Source of the DNA: Hyphomonas chukchiensis
GTDB taxonomy: Bacteria; Pseudomonadota; Alphaproteobacteria; Caulobacterales; Hyphomonadaceae
DNA length: 64,000 nucleotides
Assembly: GCF_000682695.1 (NCBI RefSeq)
Contig: NZ_AWFG01000019.1
Coordinates: 186,001-250,000, forward strand
Direction: 5' to 3'
This document shows, one piece after another, positions 31,057 to 35,610 of the stretch. Below the pieces are notes generated by a model. It was not told where the DNA came from. It ran no database searches and was given only the letters and a program-made list of their open reading frames with translations. Made by a program: the position numbers and the translations under genes. Positions within the stretch are counted from its first letter, which is position 1; each line of letters begins with the position of its first letter.

Positions 31057-31347
31057 GAGTATTACCTGTCAGGCCCCTGAGAAGAATTGGGGCCCAATTA
31101 GGCGGCGAACGTGACAGTCACGCGACACTTCTTCTGCTGAAATACGACAATTTTGCCTCGGGAAACTTAACTCAGGTTAAGTGTGGTTGCGCGGCAACAG
31201 GCTGGCGCGTTTTGTCAAAAAAGGTTCATGTTATCATCGCAAATGCGACACGCCGGAGGGCGTTTCCGGCGCCGTTGCGGCGTGGGCGGACGGTGGAGAG
31301 ACGCGATCGTCTCCGACCGCGATTCGGGTGGGCGTATAGTTTGCCCC

Positions 31348-31785
31348 ATGAAGACGACCCGATACCGAAGACACATGAACGAGCGGGAGGCGCGGGACAT
31401 CCGGTTTCTTGTCTTGCTAGGGATGAGCCATGGCGAGATTGCCGAATGGCTGGGGCGCAACCGGAAGGCGGTTGATCGCATCATCCGCGAGAAGGGGCTC
31501 TTGGCGCCGGAGCGGCCGCTGGAACTGGCCTGGCTGACGCTGCGCCACGCCTATGAAGAGCTGGCCGAGGCCATGGCGGACGGCCGCGAATGGGACGTGG
31601 GCAAGCTGGCAAAACTGAACAGCGAGATGCGGCTGACGGAAGCGGCGATGTGGGCGGCGGGCGTGGCGCGCCGAAGAAGGATATGGGGGATGCAGGTGAG
31701 CCGGATGAGGATGCTGTCTGGGAAAGACTTGAAGCCGTTGAGCGCCAGCGTGGGATGGACTGCGCTGGACTATCGGGTGCGGGCG
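31348..31785 (+). pseudogene. Gene transfer agent small-terminase (TerS-like) relic
   Basis: MNEREARDIRFLVLLGMSHG followed by EIAEWLGRNRKAVDRIIREKG is a helix-turn-helix N-terminus like the small terminase gene before terL in alphaproteobacterial GTAs. The frame holds to about 31668 (MRLTEAAMWAAGVAR) and then reads RRRIWGMQ. Shifting frame by one base gives the more protein-like PKKDMGDAGEPDEDAVWERL, so a one-base change has probably broken the gene. It is directly upstream of the terminase relic. The HTH domain alone might still be made. Confidence 0.55.
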
Positions 31786-32145
31786 ATGGCGATGTGGGAG
31801 AGGCTGAACAATCTTCCGGAGGAGCTTCAGGCCCATCTGAGACAAAATCCGTTCGTGTTCGCGGCACGGGATACACAGGTTCCGCCGCGGGGCCCCTGGC
31901 GGACATGGGTGTTCATGGGCGGACGTGGCGCTGGCAAGACGCGGGCGGCGACGAGCGGGCGCGGGCGATGCCGGTGGCGCTGCTGTACGAGCAGGGGAAG
32001 GTCGCGCATCTCGGCATGCTGCCGACGCTGGAAGACCAGATGTGCCGGTTCGGGGCGGTGAGCTTTACCGGGTCGTCGGACCGGGTGGACCCGCTGGTGT
32101 GGGCGTTGATGCTGGAGCGAACGGGCGGGCCGCTGTGCGCGCGCT
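31786..32145 (+). pseudogene. GTA large terminase (TerL) relic with internal deletion
   Basis: The N-terminal part MWERLNNLPEELQAHL leads into PWRTWVFMGGRGAGKTRA, the Walker A region typical of Rhodobacter/Caulobacter GTA large terminases. Immediately after (junction ~31947-31950), in another frame, come RARAMPVALLYEQGKVAHLG, LEDQMCRF and SSDRVDPLVWAL, which are the last ~60 residues of the same protein. The intervening ~300 residues (Walker B and nuclease aspartates) are missing. The gene is dead. The end overlaps the convergent MarR stop. A fragment of a later GTA gene survives at 38148. Confidence 0.8.
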
Positions 32146-32592
32146 CTAGGCGAGGGCGGCGAGGCCGGTGCGCAGGGCCTTGATGGAAGAATCCGGGAGG
32201 CCTGCGTCGATCTCGGCATGCATCTGGTGCCAGATGGGGACGGCGGCGGCGAGCGTGCGGCGGCCTTCGTAGGTGAGGGCGAGGCGGCGGCTGCGCCTGT
32301 CGGCGGGATCGGGCGTCGAGGTGAGAAGGCCGCGTTTTTCGAGCGGCTTCAGGTTGGCGGTGAGCGTGGTGCGATCCATGGCGAGGAGGCCCGCGACAGC
32401 GCCGATGCTGGGCGGCTGCGGCCGGTTCAGCGACATGAGGAGCGAGTACTGGCCTGACGTGATGCCGAGGGGGCGGAAAGCCTCGTCAAAGCGGCGGGAG
32501 AGGGCGCGGGCGGCCCGCTGCGCGGCGAGGCAGAGGCAATGGTCGCGGACGTGGAGCGTGGTTTCGAAGGGGACGGTCTGGCTGTTTGACAT
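32146..32592 (-). CDS. MarR family transcriptional regulator
   Basis: A 148-residue winged-helix protein. The N-terminus CLCLAAQRAARALSRRFDEA is the dimerisation helix. The recognition region is IGAVAGLLAMDRTTLTANLK and the wing is LLTSTPDPADRRSRRLALTYEG, with the DxRxR signature. It is divergent from a glutathione S-transferase gene with a palindrome in the shared promoter, the usual layout of a MarR repressor and its detoxification target. Residues CLC near the N-terminus could sense oxidants, but this is a guess. Confidence 0.92.
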   Translation of the reverse strand: MSNSQTVPFETTLHVRDHCLCLAAQRAARALSRRFDEAFRPLGITSGQYSLLMSLNRPQPPSIGAVAGLLAMDRTTLTANLKPLEKRGLLTSTPDPADRRSRRLALTYEGRRTLAAAVPIWHQMHAEIDAGLPDSSIKALRTGLAALA

Positions 32593-33327: not shown

Positions 33328-33423
33328 GCAGGTGGGGCGTCCGCGCAGGCGGGTGGCGGAAACGGCTTGATCTCCTGAACAGGGCGGCGGAGTTTGCCTG
33401 AGTTGAATCAGGAGAGACGGGCG

Positions 33424-34542
33424 ATGACACAGCTGACACGGCGGACATTTGCGGCGACGGGGCTGGCGGCGGTGGCGACGGCCTGTGCGGGCGTCCCGGC
33501 ATCGCGCGGGCCGGGCGTGGCGATGAAGCAGGTGCCGCCGGTGATCGTGGATCCGGGCCGGGTGGCGCGGGTTGTGGTGGGCCTGCGGCCCTACCGACCG
33601 ACGGGTTTCCGCGTGGAGCGGGAGATGCTGGGCGAGACGGCCGTTATCCATAATTATGGCCATGGCGGCGGCGGGATCACGCTGTCCTGGGGCACGGCAC
33701 ATCTCGCTGTGGAGGAGGGCTGGGACCCGAACGTGAAGGACTATGCCGTGATGGGCGCGGGGATTGTCGGCCTGTCCACGGCGATGCTGCTGCTGGAGCG
33801 CGGGGCGAACGTGACGATCTATGCCAAGGCGCTGTCGCCGGAGACGACGTCGAACATTGCGGGCGGGCAGTGGTGGCCGGCGTCCGTGTATCAGGAGAGC
33901 ATGGTCGATGATGCCTACCGCGCGACACATGTGGCGGCGTCGCGCTTTGCCTTCCAGCGCTTCCAGCTGCTGACGGGGCCGGAATATGGCGTCACATGGG
34001 AAGTGAACTATGTGCTGTCGGATGAGGCGAAGCGGGACACGCCGGCGCCCAAGGGCAGCCCGATGCATGAGTTTGTCGTCAACGAGCGGGAGTATGAACC
34101 CGGCGAGCTGAGCTTTAACGCGCCGTTCGCGAAGAGTTTCGACACGATGATGGTGGATACGCCCTATTATTTGCGGGTGCTGGAGCGGGACATAAGGCTG
34201 CGCGGCGGGAAGATTGTCGTGCAGTCATTCGATGACGTGGCGCAGGTGGCGGCGTTGCCTGAGTCGGTCGTGTTCAATTGTACGGGGCTCGGCGCGGGCG
34301 CGCTGTTCGGGGACGCAGGGATCATGCCGGCGCGGGGGCAGCTGGTGATCCTGCAGCCGCAGGAGGAGGTCGACTATAACATCATCACCGGGAAGCATGC
34401 CTACATGTTCGGGCGGCGCGACGGGATTGTGCTGGGCGGCACGTTCCAGAAAGGCAACTGGTCGCTGGAGCCGAGCGCGGAAGACACGGCGATGATCCTG
34501 GCGGAGAACCGGGCGCTGTTCGAGCGGCCGATGCAGGCCTAG
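33424..34542 (+). CDS. Circularly permuted D-amino-acid oxidase-like FAD protein (Tat lipoprotein)
   Basis: A 372-residue protein. The twin-arginine start LTRRTFAATGLAAVATAC suggests Tat export and lipidation at Cys21. Residues 53-96 (GLRPYRPTGFRVER, VIHNYGHGGGGITLSWG) correspond to the extreme C-terminus of D-amino-acid oxidases, including the substrate-carboxylate arginine and the FAD-contacting HNYGHGG loop. The FAD-binding Rossmann motif VMGAGIVGLSTAMLLLERG, normally N-terminal, begins only at residue 109. The protein ends at GGTFQKGNWSLEP, exactly where a normal enzyme would continue into that C-terminal block. So the order is permuted rather than truncated. Predicted to oxidise D-amino acids or a related amine outside the cytoplasm, with folded FAD exported by Tat. 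Confidence 0.85.
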   Translation: MTQLTRRTFAATGLAAVATACAGVPASRGPGVAMKQVPPVIVDPGRVARVVVGLRPYRPTGFRVEREMLGETAVIHNYGHGGGGITLSWGTAHLAVEEGWDPNVKDYAVMGAGIVGLSTAMLLLERGANVTIYAKALSPETTSNIAGGQWWPASVYQESMVDDAYRATHVAASRFAFQRFQLLTGPEYGVTWEVNYVLSDEAKRDTPAPKGSPMHEFVVNEREYEPGELSFNAPFAKSFDTMMVDTPYYLRVLERDIRLRGGKIVVQSFDDVAQVAALPESVVFNCTGLGAGALFGDAGIMPARGQLVILQPQEEVDYNIITGKHAYMFGRRDGIVLGGTFQKGNWSLEPSAEDTAMILAENRALFERPMQA

Positions 34543-34625: not shown

Positions 34626-34850
34626 ATGGGCATCGTGAATATAGATGACGAACTGCACGACCAGCTGCGCCGGGCGAGCAAGGTGTCGTGCCGGTCGATC
34701 AATGCGCAGGCGGCTTACTGGATCAAGATCGGCCTGCTGTGCGAGCGCAACCCGACGCTGAGCTTCAGCGAGGTGATCGCGCGGGAGATGGAAGCGGCAG
34801 GCGTCTTGGTGCCGGATCTGGCGGAAAGCGCGCATGACGAAGCAGCCTGA
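34626..34850 (+). CDS. ParD-like ribbon-helix-helix protein
   Basis: A 74-residue protein of the ParD-like family: MGIVNIDDELHDQLRRASK is the DNA-binding beta strand and first helix, and SINAQAAYWIKIGLL the second. The C-terminal tail (VLVPDLAESAHDEAA) could bind a partner. Annotated ParD-like proteins are described as antitoxins, but no RelE/ParE-like toxin is present here. The partner is instead the methionine aminopeptidase gene, which overlaps its last 17 bases. A perfect inverted repeat before the start points to autoregulation. Confidence 0.85.
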   Translation: MGIVNIDDELHDQLRRASKVSCRSINAQAAYWIKIGLLCERNPTLSFSEVIAREMEAAGVLVPDLAESAHDEAA

Positions 34851-35610
34851 AGAACTGGCGCTGATGGCGGAGTCCGGGCGGCTGCTGGCCTCGGTGTTCG
34901 GCCTGCTGGATCGCACGCCGCTGGCGGGTCTCACCACGCTTGAGGTCGATGCGATGGTGGAGACATTCATTGTCGAAGACCTGAAGGCGCGGCCCGCGAG
35001 CAAGGGGCAGTATGACTATGGCTTCGTGCTGAATTCATCCGTGAACCATGTGGTCTGTCATGGTGTGCCATCGGAGGCGGATGTGCTGAAGGATGGCGAT
35101 ATCGTCAATTTCGACATCACGCTGGAGAAGAACGGCTTCATCGCGGATTCCAGCAAGACCTACCTGATCGGCGAGGTGAACCCGGCGGCGAAGCGTCTGG
35201 TGAAGACGACCTATGAGGCCATGTGGAAAGGCATCAAGGCGGTACGCCCCGGCGCCCGGCTCGGCGATATCGGCTGGGCCATCGAGCGGCATGCCAAGAA
35301 GAACGGCTATAGTGTTGTGCGCGAATATTGCGGCCATGGCATTGGCCGCGAGATGCATGAGGACCCGCAGGTGCTGCACTATGGCAAGCCGGGCACGGGA
35401 CTGGTGCTGCGCGAGGGCATGGTGTTCACGATCGAGCCGATGATCAATCAGGGGCGCCGCTATGTGCGCACGGAGGATGACGGCTGGACGGTGGTGACGA
35501 AGGACGGCGCGCTGTCTGCCCAGTTCGAGCATACGGTGGCGGTCACGTCGGATGGTGTGTCAGTGCTGACACTGCGCACGGAGGAAATGGTACGGGGCGC
35601 GGCAGCCTAA
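34834..35610 (+). CDS. map: Type I methionine aminopeptidase
   Basis: A 258-residue enzyme removing N-terminal methionine from new proteins. Metal ligands are visible in the expected order: Asp in IVNFDITLEKNG, Asp in FIADSSKT, His in CGHGIGREMHED, Glu in FTIEPMI and Glu in FEHTVAVT. The substrate-side His is in NHVVCHGVP. Length and motifs are those of a complete housekeeping-type enzyme. Its start overlaps the ParD-like gene by 17 bases, and the two probably form one transcript. Whether this is the essential Map or an accessory copy cannot be told from the window. Confidence 0.95.
   Translation: MTKQPEELALMAESGRLLASVFGLLDRTPLAGLTTLEVDAMVETFIVEDLKARPASKGQYDYGFVLNSSVNHVVCHGVPSEADVLKDGDIVNFDITLEKNGFIADSSKTYLIGEVNPAAKRLVKTTYEAMWKGIKAVRPGARLGDIGWAIERHAKKNGYSVVREYCGHGIGREMHEDPQVLHYGKPGTGLVLREGMVFTIEPMINQGRRYVRTEDDGWTVVTKDGALSAQFEHTVAVTSDGVSVLTLRTEEMVRGAAA

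Follow-up and report, generated by a model that had tools for sequence, protein, structure and literature searches.

Does a gene that reads as a D-amino-acid oxidase (DAAO) with its two ends exchanged represent a natural rearrangement, and if so, what might the protein do and how often has such a rearrangement arisen? DAAO, with its many solved structures and its uses in biotechnology, is a model among flavoenzymes. In the 64,000-nucleotide stretch of DNA analysed here (the window), an open reading frame at 33424..34542, on the plus strand like all features of the gene described below, translates into a DAAO-family protein of 372 aa, with a Shine-Dalgarno-like AGGAGA (33410..33415) 8 nt upstream of its ATG at 33424. 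The protein scores 119.2 bits against the Pfam DAO profile (PF01266, cut-off 27.9), its best stretch covering only profile positions 1-298 of 353. A diverse set of 14 permuted members all matched DAO at E ≤ 0.001. We consider it very probable that the gene encodes a protein of the DAAO/D-aspartate oxidase branch that has undergone natural circular permutation; its fold, twin-arginine (Tat) export and lipid anchor are predicted, and the oxidation of D-amino acids is inferred.

Residues 39-103 (33538..33732), which include the stretches matching pig DAAO (39-92) and the D-aspartate oxidase 6rkf (49-93), are equivalent to the C terminus of DAAO. This block contains GLRPYRPTGFRVER (residues 53-66), with Arg55 (33586..33588) as the equivalent of pig Arg283 on the site map, invariant in alignments A1 and A2, and HNYGHGG, read in the translation at residues 76-82 (33649..33669); GLRPYRP to HNYGHGG spans residues 53-82. 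According to the predicted secondary structure and the spacing, a new linker (residues 100-105, 33721..33738) leads from the old C-terminal helix to Rossmann strand 1, and the Rossmann and substrate-domain core follows (residues 106-367, 33739..34524, equivalent to pig DAAO 1-268). Within the core lie the GxGxxG FAD-binding motif (residues 111-116, 33754..33771), the equivalent of pig Tyr228 (Tyr327, 34402..34404, from the site map and invariant in alignment A1) and FQKGNW (residues 341-346), after which the chain runs for 26 residues and stops. Two details of a previous sequence-only reading need amending. It put the start of the Rossmann motif at about residue 109, where the glycines start at 111, and it ended the protein at GGTFQKGNWSLEP, beyond which the chain extends for 22 residues, through a helix ending near the equivalent of pig 268. 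In the model this final helix comprises residues 352-364 (34477..34515), and the chain ends shortly after.

That reading had also claimed that the C-terminal block of DAAO stands here ahead of the Rossmann motif, and comparison with solved structures bears this out. When the protein was compared with PDB sequences (phmmer), the best match was 6rkf (8.1e-36), and pig DAAO 1an9 was matched at 9.7e-27. Both matches came in two swapped stretches: query residues 107-363 align to 15-268 of the 6rkf chain and 49-93 to 281-328, and query residues 108-350 align to 4-251 of pig DAAO and 39-92 to 268-323. The halves of the window protein join at pig residue 268, and coverage reaches pig 323. As a control, the canonical DAAO of Rubrobacter xylanophilus (P0171) aligned to those PDB chains as one stretch. 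Judged from the matched ranges, all 18 PDB sequences with a match are unpermuted.

A permutation-aware alignment, proposed earlier as a check, likewise came out in favour of the swap, as relocating the block restored the score. For this rotation test, rotated sequences were aligned by single-path local alignment to a profile of 98 canonical proteins. The window protein gained 47 bits, and only with the cut between the block and the Rossmann motif. Rotation took P0001 from 161.7 to 209.2 bits, with only cuts after residues 92-107 lying within 0.5 bit of the best. All 14 permuted proteins scanned had their best cut between the block and the Rossmann motif, whereas 5 of 5 canonical proteins scored best unrotated. 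Moving the block to the end gained 34.6-76.5 bits against the canonical profile in 252 of 252 permuted sequences (246 distinct, many closely related and so not independent), and moving it to the front cost every one of 117 canonical rows 67.9 bits or more. The 252 are a set of 254 minus P0121 (292 aa, too short) and P0093, which carries HNDGHGG, was missed by the pattern and is likewise permuted on reading. As the sign of the rotation score is the same throughout the permuted set and throughout the canonical set, the swapped order is not a matter of chance. An hmmsearch rotation scan with multi-domain scoring did not separate canonical and permuted orders, and is uninformative because HMMER splits the match at any rotation.

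The mammalian DAAOs (pig 1an9 and 1kif, human 2du8) and D-aspartate oxidase 6rkf have the same blocks, FAD motif and active-site equivalents as the window protein, which differs from them in its swapped blocks, its export signal and its shorter loop at pig 216-228, the active-site lid according to excerpts of PMC6697736. The window protein has the GxGxxG motif and Rossmann core of the DAAO/D-aspartate oxidase family and does not have its linear order, in which the Rossmann motif comes first and the HNYGHGG block last; we therefore speak of a permuted branch and not of an ordinary DAAO member.

The whole chain was modelled with a pLDDT of 85.0 and a pTM of 0.84, and 34 of its 372 residues fell below pLDDT 50. 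With sequential aligners, which cover the core only, the part equivalent to pig DAAO 1-268 superposes on 1an9 at 2.1 A. Block residues 41-100 have pLDDT 78-98 in this model; folded alone (with 34 relatives), the block reached pLDDT 64.7 and lost the strand at 47-57. As this strand appears only in the whole chain, its partner in the model probably lies in the core, and a block left unplaced would hardly allow a pTM of 0.84. The strand with the substrate-binding Arg, the HNYGHGG loop and the last helix would then make up a unit that now heads the chain, tied by the short linker to Rossmann strand 1, with the chain opened at a loop near pig 268. So arranged, the permuted chain would adopt the ordinary DAAO fold and be loaded with FAD in the cytoplasm.

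Both Arg283, the substrate carboxylate ligand of pig DAAO, and Tyr228 are residues of known role. The window protein keeps the equivalents of both, the HNYGHGG equivalent and the FAD motif. Across 20 permuted rows aligned, the Arg283 equivalent is always Arg, the Tyr228 equivalent is Tyr in 17 (the exceptions being L006, L011 and L132) and the HNYGHGG equivalent is retained on the site map with small changes. With the Tyr missing in three rows, substrates may differ among members. We also observed a permuted subfamily (L006, L011, L015, L045 and L047) with the motif [HN]YGHGG[SA]GWSLSWG; in its two mapped members the Tyr228 site holds Ser (L006) or Phe (L011), and the substrate of this subfamily may therefore differ. 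D-aspartate oxidase, which gave the top PDB score, was considered as the closest function and rejected, since the His and Arg that 6rkf has at pig positions 55 and 215, which we take to be its His56 and Arg216 with their role, are Ala and Ile in the window protein.

Our best reading is that the window protein would be a flavin oxidase located outside the cytoplasm, probably anchored by lipid, and acting on D-amino acids or similar amines. There, oxidation of D-amino acids or of small amines related to them would yield a 2-oxo acid along with ammonia and H2O2. Somewhat unlikely, in our estimate, is that it is a true permutant of the DAAO fold with another function, such as a dehydrogenase, an oxidase of other amines or a catalytically altered periplasmic flavoprotein. 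Such a change would fit the Trp that replaces pig Gln at position 53, the loss of the Tyr228 equivalent in some rows and the absence of conserved pathway genes nearby, but it sits poorly with the retention of the Arg283, Tyr228 and HNYGHGG equivalents in the window protein, with an Arg283 equivalent in every row, and with D-aspartate and D-amino-acid oxidases being the nearest solved relatives by both sequence and fold.

Placement of this putative oxidase outside the cytoplasm rests on its N terminus. This carries the putative twin-arginine lipoprotein signal noted earlier, with TRRTF at R6-R7 followed by a likely lipidated Cys21 (33424..33486). In alignment A1 (37 sequences), R6-R7 is nearly invariant and Cys21 invariant. 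Among 121 close relatives, 94 have RR within the first 25 residues and 117 have [AGS]C within the first 40. In 80 named loci, for which starts were not fixed, RR precedes the block in 79, where shuffles gave 37.0 and other parts of the same proteins 35; RR..[AGS]C occurs in 70, where the corresponding numbers are 6.4 and 0. At position -3 of its lipobox the window protein has Ala, which is atypical relative to the known consensus. Among the exceptions, L045 has RR but lacks the Cys, L017 has a Sec-like start and L048 has no visible signal; L197, a divergent relative of L017, has both RR and Cys. Given L048 and L017, Tat export is not universal among permutants.

For a protein that has to be folded around its FAD before it is exported, Tat is a sensible route. 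The folded, FAD-loaded protein would leave by this system, and a lipid on Cys21 would probably anchor it. Canonical proteins have at most 24 residues before strand 1 (119 of 119 measurable among 120 matches listed). The DAAO of R. xylanophilus belongs to the same branch and is also bacterial, but it has the canonical order and no room for a signal; it is described, in excerpts of PMC6697736, as narrow in specificity, acting on branched-chain D-amino acids. In a permuted chain the N terminus would no longer be at strand 1, buried in the FAD domain, but would lie at the edge of the substrate domain. It is conceivable, albeit rather unlikely, that an ancient permutation in this way gave rise to a class of exported DAAOs, since a Tat signal and a lipid anchor could then be attached while FAD binding stayed intact. 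If true, permuted DAAOs in bacteria would be extracytoplasmic and canonical ones cytoplasmic.

To place the permutation on a phylogeny, we compared three trees, their rows thinned by similarity. The outgroup was the glycine oxidase ThiO (TIGR02352; 4ysh, 1ryi), which has the canonical order; the host genome has a ThiO-like gene of its own (L160) that, at 245.9 bits, falls just below the TIGR02352 cut-off of 250.8. The first tree held 77 rows, with L017 and without L197. The second, rooted on ThiO, held 73 rows, without L017, OUT_L159 and 11 of 24 canonical rows and with 9 canonical rows added; the third (74 rows) added L017 and L197 to the second and dropped L182. L017 (from G134, Alphaproteobacteria) and L197 (from G1049, Bacteroidota) are a very divergent permuted pair with long insertions. 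The clade that holds the window protein is stable in all three trees: this main permuted clade of 43 rows has support of 98/91, 98/92 and 96/86 in the first, second and third. That canonical order is ancestral follows not from the trees but from the wider DAO family (ThiO, MnmC and others), in which the Rossmann motif comes first. The likely route would be that a canonical gene was duplicated, fused and trimmed, once for the main clade.

Outside the main clade the trees differ. All permuted rows of the first tree lie on one side of a branch, weakly supported (62/5), with the very long L017 basal. The second tree unites 45 permuted rows in one clade (95/83) nested among canonical rows and sister (98/98) to the canonical Bacteroidota proteins L177 and L178, a position that does not recur in the third tree. 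These two proteins (about 380 aa) share the terminal motif HNYGHGGAGVTLSWG with the permuted proteins but have the canonical order, with no signal sequence seen. We withdrew a single nested permuted clade, which came from the second tree alone, as inclusion of L017 and L197 in the third breaks the grouping. There, L017 and L197 adjoin the outgroup on a branch of 2.67, L043 and L048 group with canonical rows (86/73), and all permuted rows stand together in 4% of 200 bootstrap trees.

The third tree makes a single origin less sure, and between one and three origins are possible. We incline away from two or three independent permutations, in each of which the chain would have been opened at nearly the same place, while granting that they would explain why the third tree and its bootstraps separate L043/L048 and L017/L197 from the main clade. 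Junction spacing also differs in these proteins, being 24 in L043 and L048 and 26 in L017, as against 20. On the other hand, one clade is recovered without L017, and weakly with L017 but without L197; the tree tool warned of possible long-branch attraction between the L017/L197 branch and the outgroup; and in an AU test, uniting all 47 permuted rows cost 4.06 log-likelihood units and was not rejected (p-AU 0.186).

Permuted relatives are widespread. Of 7993 homologues found, 120 were listed, and in every one of these the block comes ahead of the Rossmann motif, as recognised by pattern in 119 and on reading in P0093. Searches with permuted queries returned at least 584 named relatives, and all of the best 80 are permuted; since likeness to permuted proteins was the basis of their selection, they speak for breadth and not for frequency. 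By record names, and with many loci coming from metagenome-assembled genomes, the best 80 of at least 584 cover eight phyla: Pseudomonadota (46), Acidobacteriota (14), Gemmatimonadota (8), Verrucomicrobiota (5), Bacteroidota (4), and Zixiibacteriota, Myxococcota and Cyanobacteriota (1 each). The earlier belief that permuted relatives occur in other proteobacteria is supported. WG and GxGxxG are 20 residues apart in 74 of the 80 named loci. The nearest named relative among the matches listed is from Hyphomonas sp. BRH_c22 (87%).

Genome samples gave a complementary view. Among 101 genomes of the family to which the window belongs, 54 encode a homologue (E ≤ 1e-20), and in 24 of 24 of these that were fetched (the window genome excluded) the homologues are permuted. 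In the class sample, 13 of 289 genomes matched the junction query over its whole length (46 had any match, and G134 is a further permuted case on reading); in the phylum sample, 20 of 398 did. In four samples that each hold one genome chosen as positive, it was spanned end to end in 10 of 149 Acidobacteriota (5 others being canonical), 1 of 146 Cyanobacteria and 29 of 150 Gemmatimonadota, with 2 clear spans in 198 Bacteroidota besides G1049 on reading. Of 120 matches listed for a canonical alphaproteobacterial query (L016), 117 are canonical, none is permuted and 3 could not be assigned by pattern. Both orders therefore occur in bacteria, side by side within Acidobacteriota and Bacteroidota.

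Some candidates were rejected, and some copies are unusual. Weak Bacteroidota matches (1e-11 to 1e-16) had looked like a divergent permuted group, but five of the six read out are canonical (L177-L179, L194 and L195) and one, L197, is permuted. Matches through stop codons in G1044 and G959, considered as a two-block intermediate, are both ordinary canonical genes. Five permuted copies occur in G751 (the Acidobacteriota genome of L098) and four in G798, which suggests an expansion in Acidobacteriota. The permuted homologue L046 (G478) has an in-frame TAG just before the block, with no intervening start codon, and is perhaps a decaying copy. In a thirtieth Gemmatimonadota genome (G1264), the permuted block of L196 runs into unrelated sequence and not into the Rossmann core, the copy being interrupted by another element. 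A cyanobacterial genome (G1227) encodes, at 208-2655 on the minus strand of L182, a canonical DAAO domain (DAO, 115.4 bits) and a C-terminal ATP-grasp_3 domain (1e-07) in one frame of 816 residues, by sequence a possible bifunctional D-amino-acid enzyme; L181 of G1153 reads like the same fusion.

Substitution patterns were estimated from orthologue pairs. With NG86, the window gene and its orthologue L049 gave dN 0.035 and dS 0.356; against two orthologues 94% identical to it, dN is 0.035 and dS about 0.36, and two remoter orthologues gave dN and dS of 0.21 and 0.77, and of 0.24 and 0.80. YN00, for one pair only, gave dN 0.029 and dS 1.30. It is vanishingly improbable that the gene is an artefact of sequencing, assembly or annotation, that it encodes a truncated DAAO, or that it is an intact gene with a stray C-terminal fragment fused to it: a fragment fused before a normal DAAO would give an identical N-terminal appearance, and nothing else was found in its favour, but 201 of 201 permuted proteins lack a second HNYGHG-type block and have no RPxR motif in their last 70 residues, dN is well under dS for the window gene, and the swapped order is conserved in independent, unrelated genomes of eight phyla, which refutes this reading. 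The earlier proposal of a natural circular permutation, neither truncation nor fusion, agrees with parts that are present once and in conserved order across those phyla.

The permuted branch of this well-studied family is real and apparently undescribed. The open PMC full text searched, a scope largely outside subscription papers, yielded no permuted DAAO and no paper on a permuted DAO fold, and term searches found none in the portions covered of PMC12667903, PMC11757225, PMC2395249 (on circular permutation) and PMC6697736. The cpRAS GTPases, as described in excerpts of PMC2430557, are likewise natural circular permutants with a scattered phylogeny, but have another fold. Natural DAAO permutants in at least eight phyla offer a ready set of alternative topologies for a two-domain enzyme. 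They also give a case of permutation that trees can locate, and make it possible to test whether permutation and protein export are linked. The labels 'FAD-dependent oxidoreductase' and 'D-amino-acid oxidase' conceal this rearranged, exported class.

In the window, the gene is flanked by a glutathione S-transferase gene upstream and by a ParD_like/M24 peptidase pair downstream. These flanks are not conserved in relatives: when open reading frames around the 80 named loci and the window were clustered, the gene itself aside, a single cluster was present in more than 6 loci, and this one, on the minus strand in 16 loci, is probably made up of antisense frames of the permuted gene. The ParD_like antitoxin-type gene (PF11903, 69.3 bits; 34626-34826) lies immediately before the M24-family peptidase gene (34834-35610), whose product is methionine-aminopeptidase-like; the pairing of ParD_like and M24 genes is a familiar one. 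Elsewhere in the window, two overlapping open reading frames at 31183-32183 have no Pfam match and show weak similarity to a phage HTH protein (phrog_517, 6e-4) and to a terminase large subunit (phrog_38, 7e-4), the latter in another frame; from its sequence, this stretch looks as if a phage-like or gene-transfer-agent packaging gene had been broken.
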